From positions 1 through 43,366 of the forward strand of contig JAFGPC010000159.1 in assembly GCA_016926155.1 (NCBI GenBank): a stretch of 43,366 nucleotides of DNA, given 5' to 3'. How positions within the stretch are numbered: position 1 is the stretch's first letter; each line of letters begins with the position of its first letter. The notes beneath the pieces are model-generated. The model was not told where the DNA came from. It did no database searches and saw nothing but the letters and a program-made list of their open reading frames with translations. This document shows, in pieces, positions 1-16,948 of this stretch. Source of the DNA: Sedimentisphaerales bacterium (lineage in GTDB: Bacteria; Planctomycetota; Phycisphaerae; Sedimentisphaerales; Anaerohalosphaeraceae). Made by a program: the position numbers and the translations under genes.

Positions 1-92
1 ATTCTCACTATGGCTTCCCCTGTCGGAGAGACGGCCGAGCACAGACTCGCCATGATCAGCACTGTTATGATTCCACCCACCATTTTTCTCAT
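1..92 (-). CDS. Start of an exported protein, cut by the window edge
   Basis: Only the first 30 codons lie in the window. They read as a typical signal peptide: a basic start (MRKM), a hydrophobic core (GGIITVLIMASLCSA) and a likely cleavage site near SLCSA or AVSPTGEA. A strong ribosome binding site (AGGAGG) lies about 7 bases upstream of the ATG at 92, which makes this start convincing although the ORF is short here. The product is inferred to be secreted or periplasmic; the mature part is outside the window, so no function can be given. Confidence 0.7.
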   Translation of the reverse strand, partial: MRKMVGGIITVLIMASLCSAVSPTGEAIVR

Positions 93-450
93 CGATCTGC
101 CTCCTACTATATTTAACACACTTTTATGTTGCTTTGCCTTCTACCAGACCGGTCTCTGATCGGCCTTACAAAAGAAATATATGGTAAAAAGCCTTCCCTC
201 GCAGAATACTGCCTTTCTTTGCAAAGAAACTGAATGATCATCAAGATGGGAACCTTTGCATCGTTTCTCTTTTTCAATACTAAACAAAGAGAACCTGCTC
301 AGTTTAAATACTGCAGACTTCACATGCCTCCATTGGAATGTTAGTCAGAAAATATGAACTTGTCAATTAAGAAAGTATTTTTTTTCATTTTTTCGACATT
401 TAATTTTGTTATCCCATTAGATCAATAGACATAAATATAAAGGGATTTTC

Positions 451-576
451 ATGAAGAAACTGTCGGAATCGCCATGGGTAAATTTACTTGTGAAAATCGG
501 TATTTCACATGATTGCAATATACCGGCTCATAGAGGAAGATGCGCCATCCGCTCTCCGAGTTTGTCTGTAATGTAA
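451..576 (+). CDS. Possible 41-residue small protein or leader peptide
   Basis: A plus-strand ORF begins MKKLSESPWVNLLVKIGIS and ends at TAA 574-576. AAGGGA lies about 7 bases before the ATG, and the upstream 90 bases are very AT-rich, as a promoter region would be. Its last 10 codons run into the left arm of a 9-bp hairpin (549-557 with 602-610) followed by TTTTG, which could act as its terminator. No family is recognised, and no plus-strand gene lies downstream within the next 27 kb, so a leader-peptide role has no target here. It may be chance. Confidence 0.22.
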   Translation: MKKLSESPWVNLLVKIGISHDCNIPAHRGRCAIRSPSLSVM

Positions 577-811
577 TTTGCAGACCTCACCTCCTCCAAA
601 TGGAGAGCGGTTTTGTAAAGGGAGGCAAGGCAATATCATACACCCTTCCCTTAAATGCATGTCGCTTGACAAAACAGCGTACATACATATAATGGAATAT
701 CAGTATTAACAAGCAAAGAGGGGGGGAGAGGATCTGTCGGGATCCCCTCCCATGACGCTGCAGGGGAGAAAATGCCTTAGACACTAACTTCCAAGGCCTA
801 CAGCGTCGCCC
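541..811 (+). ncRNA. Candidate structured RNA with four hairpins
   Basis: Four inverted repeats follow each other. H1 pairs 549-557 with 602-610 (9 bp, perfect) and contains an inner stem 564-568/581-585. H2 pairs about 618-625 with 644-652 (one bulge). H3 pairs 724-734 with 741-751 (10 of 11 pairs, 6-base loop). H4 pairs 754-760 with 801-807 (7 bp) and contains an inner stem 773-777/794-798. H4 is followed by GCCCTTTTTG, which favours the plus strand with a terminator-like end. It does not match conserved cores I can recall for RNase P RNA, tmRNA, SRP RNA or common riboswitches. The individual stems are seen in the sequence; that they form one RNA is inference. Confidence 0.3.
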
Positions 812-881
812 TTTTTGCTATCCAGTCTCTTGGTTTAATAATCGCCATATTTAAAACAATCCACATAACTCAACTTATGCA

Positions 882-908
882 AAATAAAGGAATATTTTTG
901 TAATTCCT
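882..908 (-). terminator. Terminator-like hairpin after the vanZ-like gene
   Basis: Read on the minus strand, AGGAAT (908-903) pairs with ATTCCT (893-888) across a 9-base loop and is followed by TTATTTT. It lies 19 bases past the stop codon of the VanZ-like gene, so it is a plausible end of the polysaccharide operon. The stem is short and AT-rich, hence moderate confidence. Confidence 0.45.
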
Positions 909-926
909 ATCGCGTTTGCAAGCCAG

Positions 927-1394
927 TCATAAGAATTGTGAATGCTGCTTATTCGTGCTAGGATTCCATCTGCTCGCCTGGAAATAGATAAATACCAGAG
1001 AAATTCCTGCCACATCAGATAGCCAGTCATAAATACTGGCATTCCGGCCGAAATGAACTTGTGTAAATTCATCCAGAGCAGCAATGACCAAGAGCCCGAA
1101 TAGGATGAAAAGAGACCAGCGCAGCTTGGCGCCGGCAGCGAGAGAACTTAAAAAAAGAGTTGCCAACAGACCATAACTTGTAAAATGCAACAAAAGCGGA
1201 TGTACATCAAACAGTCTATGTAATTTGCCCAGTGATTTTGCTGGGATATGCGTAAGAATCACAATGGAAACAAATATGAAGCAGCCCAGTAAAAATCGTT
1301 TTCTTTTTAGGATAGTTCCCGAAGCAGGTAAGGACGTTGCAATCACTTCACTCACTGACTTGTTTCCGAATTCATTAATAAATAGCCATTTCAC
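927..1394 (-). CDS. VanZ-like membrane protein
   Basis: The 155-residue product is a small integral membrane protein of the VanZ-like family. Hydrophobic segments lie at about 35-50, 70-85, 92-110 and 125-140. The family signature is visible as acidic and aromatic residues in the loop LDEFTQVHFGRNASIYDWLSD (D and E near 107, the paired D residues near 123-127). VanZ of enterococci gives low-level teicoplanin resistance, but VanZ-like proteins are also common in polysaccharide loci, where their role is not established. The start is GTG at 1394, 6 bases past the wecB stop, so the two are probably cotranscribed. It appears to be the last gene of the locus. Confidence 0.75.
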   Translation of the reverse strand: MKWLFINEFGNKSVSEVIATSLPASGTILKRKRFLLGCFIFVSIVILTHIPAKSLGKLHRLFDVHPLLLHFTSYGLLATLFLSSLAAGAKLRWSLFILFGLLVIAALDEFTQVHFGRNASIYDWLSDVAGISLVFIYFQASRWNPSTNKQHSQFL

Positions 1395-1400
1395 AAATCA

Positions 1401-2537
1401 TTAACTTATAATACCTGCCGTAGTTGTTGAAAAAGAATATACCTTTTGTATAACCTGTACAATCCTTTCGGCTGCCTTGCCATCCCATAATGGAGGGATT
1501 TGAGGTTTCCGTATGTTACCACTAATTACATTGTTATAGGCTTTAAGGATTCTTTCTGGATCCGAACCCACGATCTGGTTTGATCCGATTTCCGCCGTCA
1601 CCGGTCGTTCTGTGTTCTCTCGAAGGGTGATGCATGGGACTTGTAACGCTGTTGTTTCTTCCTGAATGCCACCGGAGTCTGTTAAGACAAGTTGGGCTGA
1701 TGCCTGAAGTTTCAAAAAATCCAGGTAACCGATTGGATCCAGTAGATGCAGGTTTGATAATGCATGGAGTCGATTATCCATCCCGAAGGTTTTTAGGTTC
1801 TTACGTGTACGGGGATGTATCGGAAATATGATTGGAAAATCTTTCTGAATTACCTCTATGGCATCCATGATTCGGGTGAATGTTTTTGGATCATCCACGT
1901 TGCTGGGGCGATGCAATGTCAATAGCACAAATCCGTCCCCATCAAGATACCCTTTGTAATTCAGATCATGTAAAATTGTAGACTTCATAGCTCTGTCAAG
2001 ATGGGCTAAAAGTGTATCGATCATCACATGGCCAACCATGTATATCTTTTCACTGTCCACACCTTCACGAAGAAGATTGTTTACCCCTGCCTGTTCTGTG
2101 CAGAAGAGCAGGTCACTGATCGAGTCGGTAAGGACACGGTTGATCTCCTCCGGCATAGTACGGTCAAAGCTGCGTAATCCCGCTTCGACATGAATCAGTT
2201 TGATACCTAGTTTGACGGCCACTAATCCGCAGGCAATGGTGCTGTTCACATCCCCGACCAGAAGAACTGCATCGGGTTGATGCTCCAGGCAGACGGGTTC
2301 AAAGGCCTTCATAATTTCGGCGGTTTGCACGGCATGGCTGCCACTGCCAACCTCCAGGTTGATATCCGGTTCAGGGATACCCAGTTCACGGAAGAACAAG
2401 TGGCTCATTTTTTCGTCGTAGTGCTGTCCTGTATGCACCAAAAGCGGCTCAATCCAATCGTGTTTTTGATATTCCACCATTAGCGGAGCGATCTTCATGA
2501 AATTGGGGCGGGCACCGACGATATTAATCAGTTTCAT
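1401..2537 (-). CDS. wecB: UDP-N-acetylglucosamine 2-epimerase, non-hydrolysing
   Basis: This 378-residue cytoplasmic enzyme interconverts UDP-GlcNAc and UDP-ManNAc, the donor for the WecG/TagA enzyme encoded just upstream. The full length and the family motifs are present: GARPNFMK (8-15), TGQHYD (36-41), GDVNST (95-100), HVEAGLRSFD with MPEEINR (116-134), HRPSNVD (209-215), HPRTR (241-245), DSGGIQEE (287-294) and RENTERPVT (306-314). The catalytic acidic residues expected in the GD, EAG and PEE motifs are visible. No UDP-ManNAc dehydrogenase (WecC) is seen in the window, so the sugar is probably used as ManNAc. The first 47 bases recur at 3488-3534, with 45 of 47 identical (see the remnant there). 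Confidence 0.95.
   Translation of the reverse strand: MKLINIVGARPNFMKIAPLMVEYQKHDWIEPLLVHTGQHYDEKMSHLFFRELGIPEPDINLEVGSGSHAVQTAEIMKAFEPVCLEHQPDAVLLVGDVNSTIACGLVAVKLGIKLIHVEAGLRSFDRTMPEEINRVLTDSISDLLFCTEQAGVNNLLREGVDSEKIYMVGHVMIDTLLAHLDRAMKSTILHDLNYKGYLDGDGFVLLTLHRPSNVDDPKTFTRIMDAIEVIQKDFPIIFPIHPRTRKNLKTFGMDNRLHALSNLHLLDPIGYLDFLKLQASAQLVLTDSGGIQEETTALQVPCITLRENTERPVTAEIGSNQIVGSDPERILKAYNNVISGNIRKPQIPPLWDGKAAERIVQVIQKVYSFSTTTAGIIS
2491..2537 (-). repeat. Direct repeat, copy A (start of wecB)
   Basis: This is the 5' end of the intact wecB. It matches 3488-3534 at 45 of 47 positions in the same orientation, 997 bases away. The first 38 bases on the plus strand (2491-2528) are identical; the two differences (2529 and 2532) are both third-codon positions that keep Lys and Leu. 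Confidence 0.9.
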
Positions 2538-2563
2538 CGTGAAATCTTCATAGAATTAATATC

Positions 2564-3400
2564 CTATGGGCATATAACATCGGTACACATCAACCACTCA
2601 GAGGCTATCATCGACAGATCTTCCAGATCAATTATCCCATTTAGGTTGAAATCGGCGCCATCGCAATCATCGTTGTCGGATGAACAATCTATCCGACTCC
2701 ACTGAGAACTGAATTCCGCTATGTCAAATAAGTCAACTCGGCAATCAAAACTGAGATCAACCTCAGGATAAGGATGATCCTGATCACCGCAGAAGTGAGG
2801 TATGCCGGGGAAGACAACATTATCCAAATATGTCAGATCCCCAGTGTCACTCCACTCAGCATTTATGTATAAGCCCTGTAAGTTGGCCAAGACTTCCATC
2901 ATATCGGTATCTGTGGCGAAACCTCCTCTCCAGGACTTCCTCCAACCAGCACCGACCAATGAGATACTGCGGTGTGTCCAGTTACCAACCATCGTAGGGG
3001 GCATATTGTAGTACAAATTCTTGGCGGCACCTTCAAGGATCACAGCCGGCCATTCTTCATCGCTTGTATAAGAAATCCATATATCAAAATGAAGGTCGGA
3101 TCCAAAAGCTTCCGTTTGATTGCCCAGAAACATTGTTGGAGCAGAAAATAAGGTGATTTTGTAATAATCGCAAGTGTATATCCCCCCGTCGATAAGACCT
3201 TCATTTGCGCTCCAGTGAGGTTCCATAGCCTCAGTGATTGGAAAATGGAAACCATGTTCCATTTGCACGATCAGCCAGCCCTCCGTGCCTGTGTCGAATG
3301 TACTGACGATCTGGCTATAGGCGAACGGACAATAAAAAGAGAAAACCATCCCGAAAGACAATATCAACTGGCGTTTCTCATTTAAGCACTTTTTAAACAT
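2564..3400 (-). CDS. Secreted protein with C-terminal dockerin-like repeats
   Basis: The 278-residue product has a signal peptide (LILSFGMVFSFYCPFAYS, cleavage near residue 29). A middle region of about 170 residues contains FDTGTEGW and LTYLDNVVF, in the style of carbohydrate-binding beta-sandwich domains; I cannot assign it firmly. The end has two calcium-loop repeats, VDLSFDCRVDLFDIAEF and ADFNLNGIIDLEDLSMIA, that is, a type I dockerin-like module. The start is fixed by GGAAGGAG 7 bases before the ATG. The gene sits between wecG/tagA and wecB, flanked by two copies of the wecB start, so it looks like a later insertion into the operon. It may bind or display the polysaccharide at the cell surface, but this is inference. 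Confidence 0.8.
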   Translation of the reverse strand: MFKKCLNEKRQLILSFGMVFSFYCPFAYSQIVSTFDTGTEGWLIVQMEHGFHFPITEAMEPHWSANEGLIDGGIYTCDYYKITLFSAPTMFLGNQTEAFGSDLHFDIWISYTSDEEWPAVILEGAAKNLYYNMPPTMVGNWTHRSISLVGAGWRKSWRGGFATDTDMMEVLANLQGLYINAEWSDTGDLTYLDNVVFPGIPHFCGDQDHPYPEVDLSFDCRVDLFDIAEFSSQWSRIDCSSDNDDCDGADFNLNGIIDLEDLSMIASEWLMCTDVICP

Positions 3401-3444
3401 AATTATCTCCTTCCGTCGTCAAAAATAATACAGTTACGTTTAGA

Positions 3445-3534
3445 TTAAAGTGTGATGTTAAGGTTTAGATAATCCTTAAGGTAGGTCATCTTCATGAAAT
3501 TGGGGCGGGCACCGACGATATTAATGAGCTTCAT
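3445..3534 (-). pseudogene. Remnant of the wecB start (16 codons)
   Basis: The ATG at 3534 overlaps the stop of the upstream transferase gene as ATGA. The reading begins MKLINIVGARPNFMK, exactly as in intact wecB, and then changes to unrelated sequence, stopping at TAA 3447-3445 after 29 codons. Only two bases differ from the intact copy over 47, both silent. The arrangement implies that wecB once followed the transferase directly with overlapping stop and start. A segment carrying the dockerin-protein gene now separates the truncated start from an intact copy. Confidence 0.8.
3488..3534 (-). repeat. Direct repeat, copy B (truncated wecB start)
   Basis: Second copy of the 47-base direct repeat (see 2491-2537). 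The repeats bound the dockerin-protein gene and mark a duplication or insertion event. Homology ends abruptly after codon 15-16. Confidence 0.9.
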
Positions 3535-4304
3535 TGGACATGAGCCTGAATTTTTCTTCTACGGCCTGTCAATTTAGCAAAAAGAACCATTAAGGCAAAC
3601 TTGGGCAAAACCAATTGCCGTTTGAATCGCTTTGGTTCCGTGCATAATCGATAAAACCATTCGGTTCCCGTAGCACGAAAGATCTTTGGCGCCCATTTCA
3701 CAAAACCGCTGACTACATCAAACGTTCCACCCACTCCCATACAATAGGGCGCATTGATTTGGGACCGATGCCGGTTGATCCACTTTTCCTGGCATGGACT
3801 TCCCATAGCCACAAAAAGCATGTCAGCGCCGCTTTTATTAATTATTCGCACTACCTCTGAATCATCCTTGAAATATCCATCCTGTCGTCCAACGATCTGC
3901 AGCCTTGGATGTTTTTGTTTTAGTTTAAGAAAAGCCCCTTCATTTACTTCCGGTTTGGCGCCCAGCAAAAATACCTTCAATCCTTCTTTTTCTGCCCGGG
4001 CCATCAAATTCAGAAATAACTGTACACCCGTCACACGTCCGATTTTCTGATTGGAGAGTAAATGAGCTGCCACCAACGCCCCTATACCATCACAAAGATG
4101 GAAATCGGCCGAATTGATCAGTCTCATCAATTCATTATCTCTCTGTGATCGGTAAATTTTTTCCGGATTGACCGCTACACAAAATGTTTTAATATGGCTC
4201 TTTATCCGTTCGACAATTCTATCTTCTGCATACCGATAGGATTCCAAGGCTGTAACAGGAACACCAAATAAATCGATCCGTCGTAATTCTGTACTTTGTA
4301 TCAT
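3531..4304 (-). CDS. WecG/TagA/CpsF-family glycosyltransferase (ManNAc transferase)
   Basis: The family (GT26) moves ManNAc or ManNAcA from UDP to an undecaprenyl-diphosphate-GlcNAc acceptor at the inner face of the membrane. The 257 residues show all family blocks: LFGVPVTAL (12-20), VNPEKIYRSQRD (45-56), the catalytic-region Asp in HLCDGIGA (D72), VFLLGAKPEV (111-120), FVAMGSPCQEKW (164-175), GVGGTFDVVSG (190-200) and the basic C-terminal WFYRLCTEPKRFKR, which resembles the membrane-contacting tail of TagA. WecB encoded downstream supplies UDP-ManNAc; the absence of WecC suggests ManNAc rather than ManNAcA as substrate. The stop overlaps the truncated wecB start. Confidence 0.9.
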   Translation of the reverse strand: MIQSTELRRIDLFGVPVTALESYRYAEDRIVERIKSHIKTFCVAVNPEKIYRSQRDNELMRLINSADFHLCDGIGALVAAHLLSNQKIGRVTGVQLFLNLMARAEKEGLKVFLLGAKPEVNEGAFLKLKQKHPRLQIVGRQDGYFKDDSEVVRIINKSGADMLFVAMGSPCQEKWINRHRSQINAPYCMGVGGTFDVVSGFVKWAPKIFRATGTEWFYRLCTEPKRFKRQLVLPKFALMVLFAKLTGRRRKIQAHVQ

Positions 4305-4463
4305 CCTATGCCCTCCCTTCTGCTATACAGATACTCCATTAATGCATGAAATGACCATGCTTGAGATCAATACAAGTTCGAAATGTAGTACCAAGAAGTG
4401 GCTTTCGTAAAGTTAACAACTCTCTCCTCTTATGAGGACTCCGGATCACCCATCAGTGAACGA

Positions 4464-4895
4464 TTAATGGGTGTTATGGACGATTTGTCCAAAGCGTATT
4501 GTCTGGATACCCGAACGAATCACCTTTGCGGGATTACCAACAACTATACATGCGGGTGGAACAGACTTAGTCACTACTGCACCCGCCCCAACGACCGTAC
4601 AATCCCCGATGGTGACTCCGGGCATGATGATGGCATTCGCACCGATGAAACAACGCTTACCAATAAATGTATCGACATGCAGTCCCTTCACATAATCATG
4701 GGTGAGGATCAGGCATCCGGATGCGCAATAAGATTCATCGCCAATGTGAACTCCTCGGGGATGTGTTTTATCAAGTTTCGTTCCCCAGGAAATTCGCGCA
4801 GTTCGGGCAATATCCATACCGTATACCTGTACGAGAAACCAACGCCTTGCCAGAATAGCTGGTGCGCGAAGCAATTCCCTAGTCTTCGTTATCAT
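4464..4895 (-). CDS. Hexapeptide-repeat acyltransferase (WcaF/LacA-like)
   Basis: The 143-residue protein is a left-handed beta-helix acyltransferase. Hexapeptide turns are visible as VHIGDESYCASGCLI (49-63), TFIGKRCFIGANAIIMPGV (75-93) and TIGDCTVVGAGAVVTKSV (94-111), followed by the usual VGNPAKVI (118-125). The His in LTHDYV (near 65) is in the place of the catalytic histidine of xenobiotic-type acetyltransferases. It probably O-acetylates a sugar of the repeat unit using acetyl-CoA. It is rather short, and the N-terminus lacks the longer helical cap of many relatives. It sits alone between gaps of 159 and 119 bases. Confidence 0.8.
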   Translation of the reverse strand: MITKTRELLRAPAILARRWFLVQVYGMDIARTARISWGTKLDKTHPRGVHIGDESYCASGCLILTHDYVKGLHVDTFIGKRCFIGANAIIMPGVTIGDCTVVGAGAVVTKSVPPACIVVGNPAKVIRSGIQTIRFGQIVHNTH

Positions 4896-5014
4896 GAAAC
4901 TCTACTTGGTGTGTCATAATATATGTTGCTAAGGCTCGGAAAACCCACGCCTGTGACCAATGTATGTTTAGATCGAAACGTACCGTATTGAGACTTGATA
5001 TTTATGTTGTGCGA

Positions 5015-6154
5015 TTACTGCAGCAATTCTAAGTAATATTTCTCATATTTGCTCATCATATGTGTAAGGGAAAACTTCTCATTTGCGGTCCGATGTCCAC
5101 ACTCACCCATCTCCCTAGTTCTATGAGGGGATGCAAGCAGGTATTTGATAGCATCGCTAAGAGCACAGGGATTACATGGAGGTACCAATAATCCATTCTT
5201 GCCATGTAAAACAACTTCGGGAAGACCTCCGACTGACGTCGCAATAACTGGTTTTGTAAGCATCATTGATTCGATCGCTCCGCCTGGGAGTCCTTCCCAT
5301 AACGAAGACATAACAGTAAATTCGCTTATATCAATATAAGGCGCAACTGCCTCAACATTGCCACAAAAAACAACATTGTCCTGCATTTTGTTTTTCTTTA
5401 CAATCCCTTTTAGATGCTCACGCTTTTCCCCGTCACCAACAAAAAGGACCCGAATTCTAGGATATAATTCAATCACTGACTTCAGTCCCATTAGGAGAAA
5501 GTCCAACCCTTTTTGTTGTGTGAGGCGTCCTATTACTGATATAATACGGTTTTCATCAGAAAGATGCAAATCGTCCATAACGCGTCTTCGCTCTTCTTCA
5601 GTAGAGTGTTTAATGTCTGTACCATTATGAATCACGGTGATTCTTGACTGATGGATATGGAAATCATCGTATAAATTTTCCTTCACTGCGTCAGAGACAG
5701 CAATGATATTCTCGCCATAAAGAAATCGTGTGAATCTCTTGTCCGAAAAAACATTTCTTGCGGTATAGATAGTCTTGCATTTTGTCAATTGCGCTGCCAG
5801 GTAGCCAAGTGCCGCCGTCCATCGATCATTGGCATGTAATATGCTAATTTCATACTTACGGATATAGTAAGATAATTGAGCTATACAAAAGGCGGCCATG
5901 AACTTACTAATTCGAAAGGGGATTCGATTGAATACAACACCCGATGAAACCAACCTTCTTACAATCCGTGATTCAGGCTCATCATCGGAAGCAAAATACA
6001 CATACCAACCATGAGAGGCAAAATGCTCAGCCATTTGGCAGGTGCGTTTCTGTGCTCCACCAGCATAGATGGTTCTGTCTGACATATGTAGTGGAATCAG
6101 TTGCGAATACAAGAATAGTATCCGTTGTGGATGATTCACTAAATGTTTCTCCAT
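5015..6154 (-). CDS. GT4-family glycosyltransferase
   Basis: The 379-residue protein has the two-Rossmann GT-B layout. The N-terminal acceptor half has an early glycine-rich loop (YAGGAQKRT, about 30-38). The C-terminal donor half shows IGRLTQQKGLD (about 209-219), VGDGEKREHL, the E-x7-E signature region SSLWEGLPGGAIESM (about 296-310) and VGGLPEVV. It should act in the cytoplasm on a lipid-linked acceptor with a nucleotide-sugar donor; the sugar cannot be predicted. It lies in a visibly AT-rich part of the locus (about 4.9-10.1 kb). Confidence 0.9.
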   Translation of the reverse strand: MEKHLVNHPQRILFLYSQLIPLHMSDRTIYAGGAQKRTCQMAEHFASHGWYVYFASDDEPESRIVRRLVSSGVVFNRIPFRISKFMAAFCIAQLSYYIRKYEISILHANDRWTAALGYLAAQLTKCKTIYTARNVFSDKRFTRFLYGENIIAVSDAVKENLYDDFHIHQSRITVIHNGTDIKHSTEEERRRVMDDLHLSDENRIISVIGRLTQQKGLDFLLMGLKSVIELYPRIRVLFVGDGEKREHLKGIVKKNKMQDNVVFCGNVEAVAPYIDISEFTVMSSLWEGLPGGAIESMMLTKPVIATSVGGLPEVVLHGKNGLLVPPCNPCALSDAIKYLLASPHRTREMGECGHRTANEKFSLTHMMSKYEKYYLELLQ

Positions 6155-6229
6155 AACAATGATAGATAGTAAATCACCACTTAAATATACAGATGTAATA
6201 AAATATCTATATTGTGAATCATGTTCAAG

Positions 6230-6910
6230 TTATTTTGTACTATCAATGATAGCATACACAGTCAGGTCGTTTCCACCCGGTTTCCACCTCATATAATGTA
6301 ATATTCGTCCTATCACCCAACTTATATGATATCCAATCCTATGTGGAAGGTAGCATGTGTACATCTTCATCCTCGGTGTCCATAGCTCATGTTTAACAAC
6401 CTTGAAGCCCGCTCTCTCCAAAAGATTTCGAATTTCCATCACATTCCAGCAATATAAATGCTGATCCCTTTTTCTGCTTTTCGTTACAACGAGAGGAATT
6501 GATATAACAAGTTTTCCGTCAGAATTGAGTAAGTCATGAAATATTCTAAGCACATTATATGGATTTTCGAGATGTTCTAATACATGTGAACATATGATAC
6601 CGTCATATGTTTGCTCGAATCTTTCCACTTCTTCGACAGCAGCGAGTCTTGCATCTATCCCACGCTTTATGCATTCATCAACTGCAAACCGAGATATATC
6701 AATACCAGTAGCTTCTGGATGTCCAGAGATATTCTGCCCAATTCCACAACCAACTTCTAATACTGAATTGCAACCGCTCAAGTATCTCCAGTACTTTCTA
6801 TTGGCGATATACGAAAGAAAATGATAGAAGCGAATATCGTTCAGATGTCTAGAATGATTTACCTTGTGATATGCTTTATCATAAAGTACAGATAGTTCTT
6901 CGTAATGCAT
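6230..6910 (-). CDS. Class I SAM-dependent methyltransferase
   Basis: The 226-residue protein has SAM motif I LEVGCGIG (51-58), an acidic strand-2 end in GIDIS (about 68-72), motif II/III around YDGIICSHVLEHL (about 104-116) and the post-motif GKLVISIPL. This pattern is that of the Methyltransf_11/23 group, which methylates small molecules or sugars. In a polysaccharide locus it probably O-methylates a sugar or caps a chain; the target cannot be read from sequence. It is flanked by short gaps (76 and 37 bases) and is probably cotranscribed with its neighbours. Confidence 0.85.
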   Translation of the reverse strand: MHYEELSVLYDKAYHKVNHSRHLNDIRFYHFLSYIANRKYWRYLSGCNSVLEVGCGIGQNISGHPEATGIDISRFAVDECIKRGIDARLAAVEEVERFEQTYDGIICSHVLEHLENPYNVLRIFHDLLNSDGKLVISIPLVVTKSRKRDQHLYCWNVMEIRNLLERAGFKVVKHELWTPRMKMYTCYLPHRIGYHISWVIGRILHYMRWKPGGNDLTVYAIIDSTK

Positions 6911-6946
6911 AATTCTCGCAACTGTATTTGATCACTTAGAGATAGC

Positions 6947-8140
6947 TTACCTGCTGTGAATATATTCTGGTTGCCTTTTTGATATTATGTCTTTTTTTTG
7001 CAAAGCAAAGGTAGATAATGCTAGTAACATATTTGCTTGCCCCCATGCCATATAAGCTATTCGATTTGTGAATAGAGGCCATTTCTGATAATAGTATATA
7101 CCTTTGTTCTCATCATACATGTTTCTGTTCGTCCACTCTGCTATTCTTTCTGCAATCCATAAAGCATTCCGACTGAACATTGCGTATTGTGAAAAGGCCA
7201 AAATTCCTTCAGCTTGATTATGAATATCCACCGGATATTTTCGCGAGAGCCTGAATCGCGAGCAACCATCCTTGGTAAATAGATACTGTCTGTAGAAGTC
7301 GAAGCCTTTATCCATAGCAGTTGCAAAAAGTGTATTCACTCCATTTGTGGCTGATTGATAATCACATAACCCTTCAAGAACAAAACCCTGGTGAAAATCA
7401 ATTTGCGTTCTCTCATACGGTGAACCTGCCATGTAAGGCCATGCGCCATTATTGAATTGATGACTTATCAACTCTCTAAGAATATTTGTAGCAAGATCAT
7501 ACAATTTCTTATCTTTCGTGATCGAGTAGACAAGACTTAACGCACCTGCTGTCATGGAATAAACATTAAGGATCGATCTTGGTTGTCCTGAAGCATAAAT
7601 AATATGAATACCGTTATCTCTAGGAACAACATGTTTTTCCACAATGACATGGGTAAATTCTTTGGCCTTTGTTAGATCGCTATCAAAACCAAAGCAAACA
7701 TGGCCTCGAATTAAACCTTTGATTGCTAGCATTGTACCCAATGTTGAAAGGCCGTTTCTGCTAGCCAGCCAGTTTCGCATTTGATAATCGTAACTCCCGC
7801 CGAGACCCCCTCCGGGAAGTTCTTTTTGTAAAAGGAAGTCACGACATTCAATGTATTTTTCTTCATACTCTGACTTCCTAGTAAGTTCATAGAGGTTGCA
7901 ATATGCTGTAAGCAATAATGCTAGCGTTTTCGTATGTTGATATTTTTGAATGGCAAGAAGTGGTCGGGCATTAATAGGTGACATTTTATTAAGATGTGTT
8001 GTCAGAAGACGAACTGCTTTTGTTTTTTTAAGCAATCCAAAGCGAGTGTTCAATCCATCATATGGCTCATTCCCGCAGTATTTTTCGTCAGTTATATACT
8101 TGTCTAGCTGTCGGATAACGGTGTTGAGGTCAGGAGTCAT
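6947..8140 (-). CDS. Toroid-fold (alpha/alpha) protein of polysaccharide loci
   Basis: The 397 residues look like a helical-hairpin toroid of the six-hairpin glycosidase, lyase or epimerase type. Repeated helical pairs carry Trp, Tyr and Gly-rich turns such as LPGGGLGGSYDYQMRNW (about 109-125), NNGAWPYMAGS (about 236-246), IDFHQGFVLEGL and the C-terminal GIYYYQKWP and YMAWGQANMLLALS. There is no signal peptide. I do not recognise a characterised family; database relatives of this kind in such loci are sometimes named after unrelated enzymes. It could be an epimerase or lyase acting on a precursor. Its ATG overlaps the end of the glycosyltransferase remnant by 11 bases, as expected for translational coupling to a once-complete upstream gene. 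Confidence 0.6.
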   Translation of the reverse strand: MTPDLNTVIRQLDKYITDEKYCGNEPYDGLNTRFGLLKKTKAVRLLTTHLNKMSPINARPLLAIQKYQHTKTLALLLTAYCNLYELTRKSEYEEKYIECRDFLLQKELPGGGLGGSYDYQMRNWLASRNGLSTLGTMLAIKGLIRGHVCFGFDSDLTKAKEFTHVIVEKHVVPRDNGIHIIYASGQPRSILNVYSMTAGALSLVYSITKDKKLYDLATNILRELISHQFNNGAWPYMAGSPYERTQIDFHQGFVLEGLCDYQSATNGVNTLFATAMDKGFDFYRQYLFTKDGCSRFRLSRKYPVDIHNQAEGILAFSQYAMFSRNALWIAERIAEWTNRNMYDENKGIYYYQKWPLFTNRIAYMAWGQANMLLALSTFALQKKDIISKRQPEYIHSR

Positions 8141-8405
8141 GATTCAACCGTTTATCTTCCACGATACTGATATAGATTGATTCAAGCCGTGTTAACACCT
8201 TCAATGCAGCAAATTTTTCTATTGCATATCGGTGATTGTATTCACCCATTCGCCAGCATAATTTGGGTGAGTTAATCAACTTTGCAATATATTTAGCAAA
8301 AAATATGTGGATCCATACTTTCGATAATAAAGTCCATCGCTTCCAGAACAAAATTTGACTTTCCTTCTCTATAAGGAGGTAAAAGGCATAGAACACCTCG
8401 AACAA
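8130..8405 (-). pseudogene. C-terminal remnant of a GT4 glycosyltransferase
   Basis: The 91-codon frame ends with a sequence typical of the last 45 residues of GT4 enzymes: AKYIAKLINSPKLCWRMGEY followed by a Tyr-Ala-rich helix and TRLESIY. The donor-binding motifs and the whole N-terminal half are missing. An in-frame stop (TAG) lies 10 codons above the nominal TTG start, and no clear ribosome binding site is seen. The frame overlaps the next gene by 11 bases. About 210 bases between it and the next intact glycosyltransferase gene show no readable coding. I take it as the tail of a decayed gene, possibly the same one whose head survives at 9778-10044. Confidence 0.6.
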
Positions 8406-8617
8406 AAACTCGTATTTGTTCTTCGCCTTCTACTCACCCAGTTTATCTATAAACGAAAACACTATTTAATTCAAGGTATATATGGGCACAAAACATCCCA
8501 AACTAATGCGAATTCCCTTTTCAAACAATTGCATCACAGTTGACTTGCGAATTTGGCACCCTGTGCTTGACGAGACTGGTTAGCTCTTATGAGAGTCTTG
8601 GCCGGGATTTAACCAAT

Positions 8618-9694
8618 CTACTGCCCATTGAACGATAATACGTATTGGACAGCTTCAAGAAAACCATTGAACATCCGTTCAATAGATGCTTCTTTCTTAT
8701 AAGTAAAAATGGCGCACTTAGCCATCTGAGAACGACGTGAATTATCGTTCAGCAATGTCGTAAGAGTATCCGCCAATAGATCTACCTTCCCAGCCGGAAC
8801 ACGAATACCATTTTCGCCGTTCTTCAGATACATGATCTCAGGCCCATGGTTCTCCAGGTTTTCTGTCACAAATGGAAGGCTACATGCCATAGCATCTACT
8901 ATGTTAAGGCCCACACATCCCGGACAACAGTATATATCACATGCGCTCATGAGTTCAAGCAGTTCATTGCCATAAAGCTTAGGGATATGCATAACTCCGC
9001 AAGGAAGTCTTTCAGGTAATACGTTTTCAATATCGGGACCAATTAAAATAACGCCCACTTTCTGATTGTCCATAATACTTACAGCATTCAATAAATCAGG
9101 GATGCGCTTACGAACTTGCATTCTTCCAGTAAATACAATATTTTTTTCGGTCTTGATGTTATACTTTGCTAAAATCATAGAACGTACCTTATGAGATAGC
9201 AGTGGGGGTGATTGAACGAGGCATAGTGTATTGTTGGCAATAAATATTTTTCTCCAATACCTCTTGGCAATGTTTTGCCTGAGATGATCACCATAGAGAA
9301 TGATGGCATGACAGAATCGATGCAAAAGACAATACACGGGACGCCATGAATTCTTGTGAGTCAGATTTATTCCGTGACCCCAATAGATGACTTTGATATT
9401 TAAAAACTGCATAGCCAATATAAACGGAAAGACGAAATAATTGTGAATACCCGTGAAAAGAATGACGACTTCAGGCCGAACCTTTCGAACGACTGCCAGC
9501 CAACTCCATAAATTCATATTTATCTTGTGAGAAGTGACATTGCAGAGCGACAAATGATCGCTCTGGATCGATTCACAAGCGATCAAAAAAGAGATGTTAT
9601 CCTCTTCAAACCGCTTAGCAAAATAATTGTAAATCGGGACGCGATAGTGCTGAACTATTCCTGCATGTAACAATAGAACCCGTTTCCCGTTCAT
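8618..9694 (-). CDS. Glycosyltransferase, GT4-like
   Basis: The 358-residue protein starts with RVLLLHAGIVQHYRVPIYNY, the N-terminal strand and loop of GT-B enzymes that read 'listen, come, go' of the acceptor side. Later blocks are IYWGHGINLT (about 104-113), IVFTGRMQVRKRIPDLL (about 182-198), VGVILIGPD, YGNELLELMSACDIYCCPG (about 233-251) and VDAMACSLPFV, where the usual EAM is DAM. It should transfer a sugar to the lipid-linked repeat unit. It lies between a head and a tail fragment of another glycosyltransferase, so it may have been inserted into, or recombined with, an older gene. Confidence 0.85.
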   Translation of the reverse strand: MNGKRVLLLHAGIVQHYRVPIYNYFAKRFEEDNISFLIACESIQSDHLSLCNVTSHKINMNLWSWLAVVRKVRPEVVILFTGIHNYFVFPFILAMQFLNIKVIYWGHGINLTHKNSWRPVYCLLHRFCHAIILYGDHLRQNIAKRYWRKIFIANNTLCLVQSPPLLSHKVRSMILAKYNIKTEKNIVFTGRMQVRKRIPDLLNAVSIMDNQKVGVILIGPDIENVLPERLPCGVMHIPKLYGNELLELMSACDIYCCPGCVGLNIVDAMACSLPFVTENLENHGPEIMYLKNGENGIRVPAGKVDLLADTLTTLLNDNSRRSQMAKCAIFTYKKEASIERMFNGFLEAVQYVLSFNGQ

Positions 9695-9777: not shown

Positions 9778-10044
9778 CTAAAAAATAGAGGGGCTAATTC
9801 TATTGGATACTATATTGAATAAGGTTCCGCATATACTGACGATCGAAAGAAACCACACCGTCGTATTTAATAGAGAGAAATTGGCTTCAGATGGCTTAAT
9901 AAGAGAGAATCCCTCGATGGGATCGGAAGAAGTATGTACAGACAAATCAATATCCTTTATGCTATTCAGTTTGTTCAGCACGCCCAACCTATAATGCGGG
10001 AAATATCGTCCAAACATGCCAATATGTATAGGTTTAGCACTCAA
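9778..10044 (-). pseudogene. N-terminal remnant of a glycosyltransferase
   Basis: The 88-codon frame begins SAKPIHIGMFGRYFPHYRLG and continues VLNKLNSIKDIDLSVHTSSD, the typical first 90 residues of a GT-B sugar transferase, then stops at TAG 9780-9778. A complete enzyme would need about 270 further residues. The start is TTG with an in-frame TAA just before it. Reading past the stop gives about 30 more codons without glycosyltransferase motifs. I take it as a truncated gene. Confidence 0.6.
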
Positions 10045-11168: not shown

Positions 11169-12038
11169 TTACCAGAGCCATGGAAACAAAACACGAACAT
11201 ATATCTTTAGCCAATACAATGGCCACAAAAAACCTGTGTGACGCTTTGTGAAAATGAGCCATTCCTTGGGCGGAAGCCCTTTAGGACTGTTCATAATTCG
11301 TATACGATCCAATAGACGCATGCTTGGCAGAGTCCAACCAGCCGCTGGGTTAGCAGAACACTCACCAATATAATTGGGTGCCATCCAGATAGAAATTCCC
11401 TTTGCTCTGGCGCGCAGTCCATAATCGACATCCCCCCTCGTATGGATGAACTCTGGGCTGAGATTGCCTAATCTAGTGACAACCTCTCGCGGAACAAGAA
11501 CCAGATTGCCATTCATAGTATCACAAGGCAAAACCCTATCTCCCGGTAACCGTGGTTGATCCGGAAGTCTGGAGCGTCGGTTGCGTTTAATCCGTCCGCC
11601 ATAGGTATGCTTTCCGGTTTTCGGATCGCGGCAAGAGCCAACGATAATCCCGTCATGGCCCTCGCTTGCGCGGACTTCACATGCTGTGGCCAGCATCGTC
11701 TCAAACGCACCAGACAACAGAATCGTATCATCATTCAGCCATAGGTAAGCGTCATAATCCTCCTTCATCGCTTCTGTCCATGCAAAGCGCATACCCCCGC
11801 ACCAATAGAGATTGCCATCTCCCTGCAGAACGCGCACGCCGGGGAATTGCTTGCGTACGGCGTCCCCCGTACCGTCGGTGCAACCGTCGTCCACCAGATA
11901 CACTTGAATCCCCACGCAATCGGGTAAACTCTGATCAAAGAGCGCCCGCAAACACGCCAAACTCTTCTCCCGCCGGTTATGACAAGTGATGAGAACGGCG
12001 ATGCGTTTGATGGATGATGTTTGAATGGGACTGTGCAT
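11169..12038 (-). CDS. GT2-family glycosyltransferase
   Basis: The 289-residue protein has the GT-A fold of family 2: IAVLITCHNRREKSLACLRA near the start, QVYLVDDGCTDGTGDAV (about 48-64), LYWCGGMRFAWTEAM and the DxD-type metal site in YLWLNDDTILLSGAF (about 100-114). The later part has GDVDYGLRARAKG, typical of rhamnosyl- and galactofuranosyl-like members. The C-terminus is aromatic (FLWPLYWLKIYVRVLFPWLW) and may touch the membrane. I chose ATG 12038; a TTG at 12044 would overlap the upstream stop. It closely follows the polymerase-like gene. Confidence 0.9.
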   Translation of the reverse strand: MHSPIQTSSIKRIAVLITCHNRREKSLACLRALFDQSLPDCVGIQVYLVDDGCTDGTGDAVRKQFPGVRVLQGDGNLYWCGGMRFAWTEAMKEDYDAYLWLNDDTILLSGAFETMLATACEVRASEGHDGIIVGSCRDPKTGKHTYGGRIKRNRRSRLPDQPRLPGDRVLPCDTMNGNLVLVPREVVTRLGNLSPEFIHTRGDVDYGLRARAKGISIWMAPNYIGECSANPAAGWTLPSMRLLDRIRIMNSPKGLPPKEWLIFTKRHTGFLWPLYWLKIYVRVLFPWLW

Positions 12039-15742: not shown

Positions 15743-16948
15743 CTAGCCTTCATAGTGTACTGACGTTGAAAATCTACCCTTGACTTTCTGTAAAAGCCAC
15801 CATGCACGCGAGCAACGGCGCTGGTGATAAGCGGAGAGTTGCAGTTTTCCCAGCGACACGGGCAAAAATCGGCTTGGGTCATGGGTTTTACGCAATTCTT
15901 CAATCAAGCGGAGATAACCATTCACAGTGGCTTCTGGTGAAAATTTCTGTTTCTGCCGTCTTTGCAGACGCTCCTGGATTTGGCGGTAGCATTTGGAATC
16001 GGCGGCTAAAGCGACAATGCGGTCGGCGTAGGCTTGGGCATCTTTGACCGTCGCAAGGAGAGTATCTGCGTCATCGCCCAGAATCCAGCGGTAGGATGGA
16101 ATATCGCTGGCGATGGGAACACACCCCGAGGCCATGGCTTCGACCAACGTCAAACCAAACCCCTCATAATTTGAGGGGAAAAGACCAAACTGCCGCTTGT
16201 TCAGGAAATCGCCGACAGCATCGCGTGATATTGCGCCATGCAGGCGAACGCAGTCAGATACTTCCAGCACCCTGATTTTTTCCTCCAGCGTTTGTCGATC
16301 CCGCCCGTCCCCCGCCACATCAAGGGTAAATTTAATTCCCCGTTTCTTGCAGGCCCGCGCTATTTCGGGCAAAATCATAATATTCTTATCAACATCGGTC
16401 AATCGCCCCAGATAGGCCAGCCCCAGAGGATTTTGCAGCACCGGAGCGACAGAGGGCGGCACCATGACGGCGTTGGCGATCATTTCCGTCCGGCATGTGA
16501 CCTTGGCCAGTTGCAAAAGCCGGTGTACTTCGGGAGAAATGCCCACCAATGCATCCAAGTAGGGGCTATGCGCCTTTCCTTCGGAAATGACTGGATCATT
16601 AGTGGACCGAATCACGGAAAGTCTAATTATGTGGGCGGGCAATGCCGGTAGGACGAGCCTTGTTTCGGTGCTGTGATTGTTAATCACGACATCATACATG
16701 GACAAGCGGTCCAGCGTGATCTCCAGCCGTCGGCGCAACCATCGTTCTCCGGCACAAATCGCCTCGACGGGCCAGCCATCACGACGAGCCCGGTCGTAAT
16801 CGGGACCGCGCCGTCCGTCCGTGGCGAGAATGTCCGCTTGATGGCCTGCCTGTTTCATGCCGCAAGCAAGAATGTAGGTTGAGGTGCCGACCCCGCCCAC
16901 AGAAGATTGGTCTATGCAGATGGCTATTTTTATAAAATGATATTTCAC
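15743..16948 (-). CDS. GT4-family glycosyltransferase
   Basis: This GT-B enzyme starts KIAICIDQSSVGGVGTSTYI, with the glycine loop of the acceptor side. Donor-side motifs are GLAYLGRLTDVDKNIMILPE (about 194-213), LDVAGDGRDRQTLEE, FPSNYEGFGLTLVEAMASGC (about 275-294) and the DIPSYRWI block. I chose the GTG at 16948 (401 residues); the open frame extends to a TTG at 16981 that overlaps the preceding methyltransferase gene, adding 11 unusual residues. The sugar transferred cannot be deduced. Confidence 0.88.
   Translation of the reverse strand: MKYHFIKIAICIDQSSVGGVGTSTYILACGMKQAGHQADILATDGRRGPDYDRARRDGWPVEAICAGERWLRRRLEITLDRLSMYDVVINNHSTETRLVLPALPAHIIRLSVIRSTNDPVISEGKAHSPYLDALVGISPEVHRLLQLAKVTCRTEMIANAVMVPPSVAPVLQNPLGLAYLGRLTDVDKNIMILPEIARACKKRGIKFTLDVAGDGRDRQTLEEKIRVLEVSDCVRLHGAISRDAVGDFLNKRQFGLFPSNYEGFGLTLVEAMASGCVPIASDIPSYRWILGDDADTLLATVKDAQAYADRIVALAADSKCYRQIQERLQRRQKQKFSPEATVNGYLRLIEELRKTHDPSRFLPVSLGKLQLSAYHQRRCSRAWWLLQKVKGRFSTSVHYEG

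Follow-up and report, generated by a model that had tools for sequence, protein, structure and literature searches.

The window, i.e. the whole stretch of 43,366 nucleotides analysed here, is one whole contig (C219) of its genome (G000; 5.0 Mb in 222 contigs). The genes of interest are arranged on the minus strand in the order wecG (4304-3531), a cut wecB start (3534-3488), a 950-nt segment with one gene (3400-2564), wecB (2537-1401), and a VanZ-like gene (1394-927). The first of them encodes a wecG/tagA-type glycosyltransferase (Pfam PF03808, 194.6 bits; TIGR00696, 175.6 bits at a cut-off of 69). The intact wecB encodes a non-hydrolysing UDP-GlcNAc 2-epimerase of 378 amino acids that passes the curated cut-off of TIGR00236 (340.3 vs. 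210.15 bits). The VanZ-like gene scores 24.7 bits against Pfam VanZ, below the cut-off of 30.1, and matches the corresponding gene of a related locus (L061) at 34%. The surroundings of wecG-wecB also contain a tyrosine autokinase gene (TIGR01007, 194.4 bits; cut-off 108.05) as well as flippase-, WecA-, and export-like genes with scores under their family cut-offs, and this neighbourhood looks like an exopolysaccharide cluster. A promoter scan of positions 800-4600 returned five sites, compared to a mean of 8.3 after shuffling, and none on the minus strand. Elsewhere in the window, an intact glycosyltransferase gene (8618-9694) is flanked by two short ORFs (8130-8405 and 9778-10044) that resemble, by eye, C- and N-terminal pieces of a glycosyltransferase; Pfam detected no such domain in either of them.

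The two wecB starts form a direct repeat of 47 nt (2491-2537 and 3488-3534) with 45 identical positions and a start-to-start distance of 997, exactly as a first-pass annotation of this DNA had reported. Neither difference changes the amino acid (codon 2, AAG/AAA; codon 3, CTC/CTG), again as reported. The longest exact stretch is 38 nt, compared to 10-17 nt in 200 dinucleotide shuffles of positions 1-8000 (repeats within 2 kb), and a repeat of 47 bases is far beyond chance. It is also the only listed direct repeat of at least 28 nt (14-nt seeds) in the window. Its edge is the A of the wecB start codon, with no extension upstream, where the flanks differ. On the minus strand, the outer copy retains the ATGA overlap with the TGA stop of wecG, continues with MKLINIVGARPNFMK, and then diverges. 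The first-pass annotation had noted this overlap and placed the cut after about 16 codons; it lies after 15 full codons and two bases of wecB, and the sequence past this left junction is unlike wecB. The remnant thereby opens a 29-aa ORF (3445-3534) made up of 15 wecB codons and 14 new ones. The inner copy heads the intact wecB, and the TIGR00236 match bears out the earlier assignment. Both copies share the frame from the same codon. Joining them in silico restored the overlapping wecG-wecB operon and left the WecB protein unchanged, so the insert could leave without harm to wecB.

If both differences had arisen in an unconstrained remnant, the chance of both being silent would be about 0.05. 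They could also stem from the selected intact copy after insertion, and are weak evidence for separate wecB alleles. The 26-nt spacer between the inner wecB start and the inserted gene (2538-2563) holds what may be a degenerate trace of the repeat end: AATTCTATGAAGAT at 2541-2554, immediately ahead of the inner start, agrees with the end of the repeat, AATTTCATGAAGAT, at 12 of 14 positions. Four of 4000 random 26-mer draws equalled this likeness, a figure that is uncorrected for choice and based on slightly fewer scored draws, since those inside the locus were skipped. The motif ATGAAGAT is present at the left junction and again in the spacer. The first bases of the spacer, GATATTAAT, are the reverse complement of ATTAATATC within the repeat.

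The segment bounded by the two copies (2538-3487; 950 nt, minus strand) carries a gene (2564-3400; start region AAGGAGATAATTATG) for a protein of 278 amino acids with a likely signal peptide (by eye), a Laminin_B domain (residues 85-196), and dockerin-like C-terminal repeats. Laminin_B is the clear domain of this protein (Pfam, 58.6 bits; cut-off 22.4). Its earlier description as a dockerin protein is less certain: the repeats are dockerin-like and a homologue (L003, 55%) is just at the Pfam cut-off for Dockerin_1 (22.9 bits), but the inserted protein itself (P0001) gave no dockerin match, either in Pfam at E values up to 10 or in NCBIfam at E values up to 0.01. We searched 161 genomes of the order, a sample with no other genome of the same genus, for homologues at E 1e-16 or better. 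Five genomes matched, i.e. the own genome, G018, G062, G066, and G501. The homologues in G018 (55%) and G062 (49%) are near full length, those in G066 and G501 partial only. The G018 gene adjoins methyltransferase-like and helicase-like genes and the G062 gene a reductase-like gene (all names by eye); neither sits at wecB. The own genome contains no second copy among the matches listed, the best of which is a dockerin-region match (E 6.7e-9). Since nothing closer is listed there, the inserted gene was probably gained from outside the genome. In a phylum sample of 392 genomes (E 1e-18 or better) only the own genome was found. Neither the repeat pattern nor peptide patterns of the inserted protein had an exact match in viral_contigs, and a single remote, partial match was seen among plasmids (28% over 65%). 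An AlphaFold2 model from a three-sequence alignment reached a mean pLDDT of 30.8, and a search of solved structures returned one weak match (E 0.64).

We compared the arrangement with that in relatives. Among 184 loci, many of them overlapping or fetched for other proteins, six distinct ones besides the window have wecG followed by wecB on the same strand without the insert, namely G002 (also L053), G047 (also L061), L069, L080, G485 (L155), and G527 (L156). The identification of L053 with G002 and of L061 with G047 is inferred from equal lengths or identities. The more distant pairs are those of G485 (wecG 35%, wecB 57%) and G527 (wecG 34%, with a wecB match of 53 aa only). In L061 a VanZ-like gene follows wecB, as in the window. 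Across the 161 genomes of the order, wecG occurs at 28 places outside the window, with wecB following it in four, within the flanks examined; the two best wecG places, G002 and G047, are both among these four. In a class sample of 397 genomes, wecB was absent from the examined flanks of the seven further wecG loci retrieved. Because six other loci, including the two nearest wecG relatives, have the direct wecG-wecB order, the arrangement in the window arose by insertion into an older wecG-wecB operon, in line with the insertion scar proposed in the first-pass annotation. In ten relatives, the wecB start agrees with either repeat copy at 34-40 of 47 positions. The two copies agree with each other at 45 of 47, and the duplication is therefore younger than the splits from these relatives. 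A donor arrangement, with the inserted gene directly before wecB, was found neither among the best 80 of 526 wecB matches in genome_contigs nor order-wide. Two other loci carry different genes beside a wecB: in L062 a leucine-rich repeat protein with a dockerin-like end is encoded (7545-8576) between another wecB and a VanZ-like gene, and in L056 two small, likely secreted proteins (by eye; no Pfam match) are encoded upstream of wecB (1209-3118).

The inserted gene had been suggested to have arrived together with a foreign wecB or by recombination at the wecB start; a foreign wecB should cluster apart from wecG in trees. In the wecG tree (all 33 rows passing; long branches flagged for L121 and L082), the window groups with G047 and G002 (88/89), the latter two being sisters (100/100). 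The large wecB tree comprised the closest 60 of 113 sequences, 53 being dropped by score. Here, the window falls into a 14-row clade (98/92) that also contains G002 and G047, but these two belong to separate starred groups, G047 with G004 and G006, and G002 with G513, G077, G503, G525, and G523. In a smaller tree of 28 of the 60 rows the window was placed without starred support. With these 28 rows, a clade of the window, G002, and G047 was rejected (p-AU 0.0007), also when the second wecB of G047 was used (p-AU 0.0028), as was a clade of G002 and G047 alone (p-AU 0.0065). That second gene, which lies in L062, is likewise a close wecB. The two genes thus differ in history among G002, G047, and relatives (L023, L027), with G002 and G047 as sisters by wecG and apart by wecB. 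Because the wider sampling groups the wecBs of G002 and G047 with unlinked wecBs, wecB must have moved or been replaced in some relatives. Trees of the six full-length linked pairs (window, G002, G047, L069, L080, and G485; L156 was left out because of its short wecB match) agree with each other weakly: the window, G002, and G047 group together in both wecB (66/79) and wecG (76/79), and G002 with G047 weakly by wecB (78/83) and firmly by wecG (100/99). The wecB and wecG identities are 73 and 56 between the window and G002, 70 and 48 between the window and L069, 66 and 52 between the window and L080, and 78 and 77 between G002 and G047.

The proposal of an insertion that came with a foreign wecB is therefore borne out for the insertion, whereas the trees are compatible with either origin of wecB: the histories of the two genes differ among relatives in the wider sampling and fit each other weakly in the six linked pairs. 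Judged from these trees, the wecB of the window may be of foreign origin, and a close donor allele would go unseen in such tests. The mismatch between the two histories weakens the reading of wecB as native and favours no single insertion mechanism strongly. Base composition was ambiguous. GC3 is 0.491 in the inserted gene, 0.472 in wecB, 0.395 in wecG, and 0.397 in the VanZ-like gene; the closeness of the first two values seemed to point to a shared origin, but the two genes of the G002 pair differ to a similar extent (wecB 0.524, wecG 0.362). L162, too, has a wecB with falling GC3.

We also scanned the own genome for direct repeats of at least 35 nt and 80% identity that lie less than 16 kb apart, treating each of 61 stretches (891,548 bases) alone. 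Fifteen repeats were found. In ten of them, the two copies fall within a single long ORF or within a pair of adjacent long ORFs; the other five are the wecB-start repeat, a repeat in L189 (G000:C140), one in L200, and two pairs in L185. Two of the 15 are clear scars, the wecB-start repeat included. The second scar, in L189, is a repeat of 177 nt (11207-11383 vs. 16276-16452; 89%) derived from the 3' end of a sulfatase gene. The cassette between its copies holds wecB2, PMT_2-type, LPG-synthase-TM, and GT2 genes. This second wecB of C140 (59%) overlaps the stop of the sulfatase gene, from which the other 177-nt copy is separated by wecB and three glycan genes. That remnant ends in a stop of its own (LHKKLAARP*), in the same place as in the relative L247 (LHTKLARKP*), and the gene on the cassette side has another tail. 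Because 12 of the 20 differing codons are silent (13 of 20 differences are at third positions), the two copies look like two working alleles; the silent excess has a P of 0.0009 against an assumed 25%. A wecB of the C140 type was absent from the examined flanks of the sulfatase genes of two relatives (L246 and L247; 77-78%). In L200 (G000:C6), a 72-nt copy (1898-1969 and 3842-3913; 86%) stems from the 5' part of what is, by eye, a regulator-like gene and is accompanied by a 281-nt block of 77%; it looks like an old tandem duplication. In L195 (G000:C210, 1-849), a 237-nt stretch is repeated at 95%, 612 bases apart, within one long ORF.

Because this second scar of the same design lies in the own genome, we consider homology-facilitated illegitimate recombination (HFIR), homologous on one side and illegitimate on the other, to be the likeliest mechanism of the insertion, with a probability of about 0.5. 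Incoming linear DNA would have carried the inserted gene followed by a wecB start. On one side it would have recombined homologously, within or beyond wecB, and on the other it would have been joined without homology to the resident wecB at codon 16. The resident start would then remain as the outer remnant, and the incoming start would become that of the working gene. The repeat begins exactly at the start codon, as two wecB alleles with unlike upstream sequences would give, and the inserted gene has no further listed copy in its own genome and has homologues in two relatives in other contexts. Donor wecBs are plausible, since wecB has been exchanged or relinked among relatives. A junction without homology to the resident sequence is seen on the left; for a homologous junction with a donor allele, we found the two silent differences and no donor. 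HFIR has been described in Streptococcus pneumoniae, Acinetobacter baylyi, Pseudomonas stutzeri, and E. coli conjugation, with an average gain of about 1 kb, illegitimate junctions mostly at 3-10 bp of micro-homology, and products from which, in the account given there, a resident stretch of about the same size is generally lost (PMC3240628). The present locus, with its 950-nt insert, resembles these cases in having one homologous and one non-homologous flank and a foreign gain of about 1 kb beside a conserved gene. It differs in its small duplication, in being known from the end product only, and in showing no visible resident loss: wecG, wecB, and the VanZ-like gene are all still present, as in L061. 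Therefore, the insertion may resemble HFIR in the way it works, without being a classical case. The small duplication in place of a loss and the missing donor speak against HFIR, the L189 scar is one case and could reflect another type of event, and the possible degenerate trace before the inner start suits template switching as well or better.

The main rival of HFIR is a local duplication with filler, in which a filler segment was taken up at the wecB start, through a staggered break or a replication template switch, and 47 bases of the target were copied. The two differences would then be later drift, with no foreign wecB involved. We regard this as a possible but rather unlikely course. 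The geometry is that of a target duplication, a third trace of the repeat end may lie by the inner start (12/14; 4/4000 draws), ATGAAGAT recurs at the left junction and in the spacer, and the linked wecG/wecB pairs fit one history, weakly. However, the position of the repeat edge at the start codon would be a coincidence, which selection for a working wecB helps to explain, and both differences are silent. Direct repeats around the insert, and the presence of the inserted gene at different places in two relatives, would also agree with transposition or site-specific integration of a small mobile unit and a 47-nt target or att duplication. This is very unlikely, given that the insert has no other ORF of at least 80 aa, that none of seven inverted-repeat pairs of at least 9 nt links its ends, that a search of the own genome turned up no second copy, and that none of the six other wecG-wecB loci is occupied. 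The flanks of the L003 homologue, which the flank comparison covers (the L004 homologue lies at a contig end), share only a 16-nt pair of 88% that we take as chance. Target-site duplications of transposons are short and of fixed length, commonly 2-14 bp, and the 47 bp found here are outside this usual range.

An ancestral order of wecG, inserted gene, and wecB with loss in the relatives, or a decayed full tandem pair of wecB, hardly seems credible. Other likely secreted genes do occur beside wecB in L056 and L062, but they are not full-length homologues of the inserted gene, and the remnant is far closer to the intact start (45/47) than are the starts of the ten relatives (34-40/47). An ancestral layout had been named as the observation that would overturn the insertion; the insert is absent from all six of the other loci. 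There is also little chance that the repeat is an artefact of a metagenome-assembled genome. The genome is in 222 contigs and the window is one entire contig, but the exact stretch is only 38 nt and the copies differ at two sites. Moreover, both junctions join unlike sequence, and a mis-join through the repeat would therefore not make them.

An HFIR-like stepwise displacement of genes has been proposed for the T6SS clusters of Vibrio cholerae (PMC5361080). There, as here, a module is anchored by a conserved neighbour and a resident remnant is kept next to it; those modules consist of effector-immunity genes and reflect repeated events, whereas the present case concerns one likely secreted-protein gene. 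In a survey of small variable segments in bacterial species, 10-18% of the segments lie between direct repeats, 66-94% of these repeats are under 30 bp, and direct repeats are held to explain part of the segment losses in other species (PMC2884548). Our locus likewise has a short segment between direct repeats that may allow its deletion, but the repeat is 47 bp long and made from a gene start, in contrast to the mostly shorter repeats reported there. The insertion scar clearly exemplifies an event of a known kind: an ordinary yet unusually legible trace of single-gene uptake by bacteria, in which the acquisition of one gene can be read with both ends preserved.

With two scars of the same design in 0.89 Mb of the own genome, the wecB-start one included, it is conceivable, albeit improbable, that this lineage repeatedly slots cargo into polysaccharide loci, that the duplicated gene ends serve as a built-in exit, and that the secreted protein is an on/off trait of the population. 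If this were true, recombination between the repeats would remove the cargo and restore the overlapping operon exactly, and an empty junction is predicted among reads of the same population. For annotation, the 29-aa ORF at 3445-3534 is a wecB remnant and not a gene.
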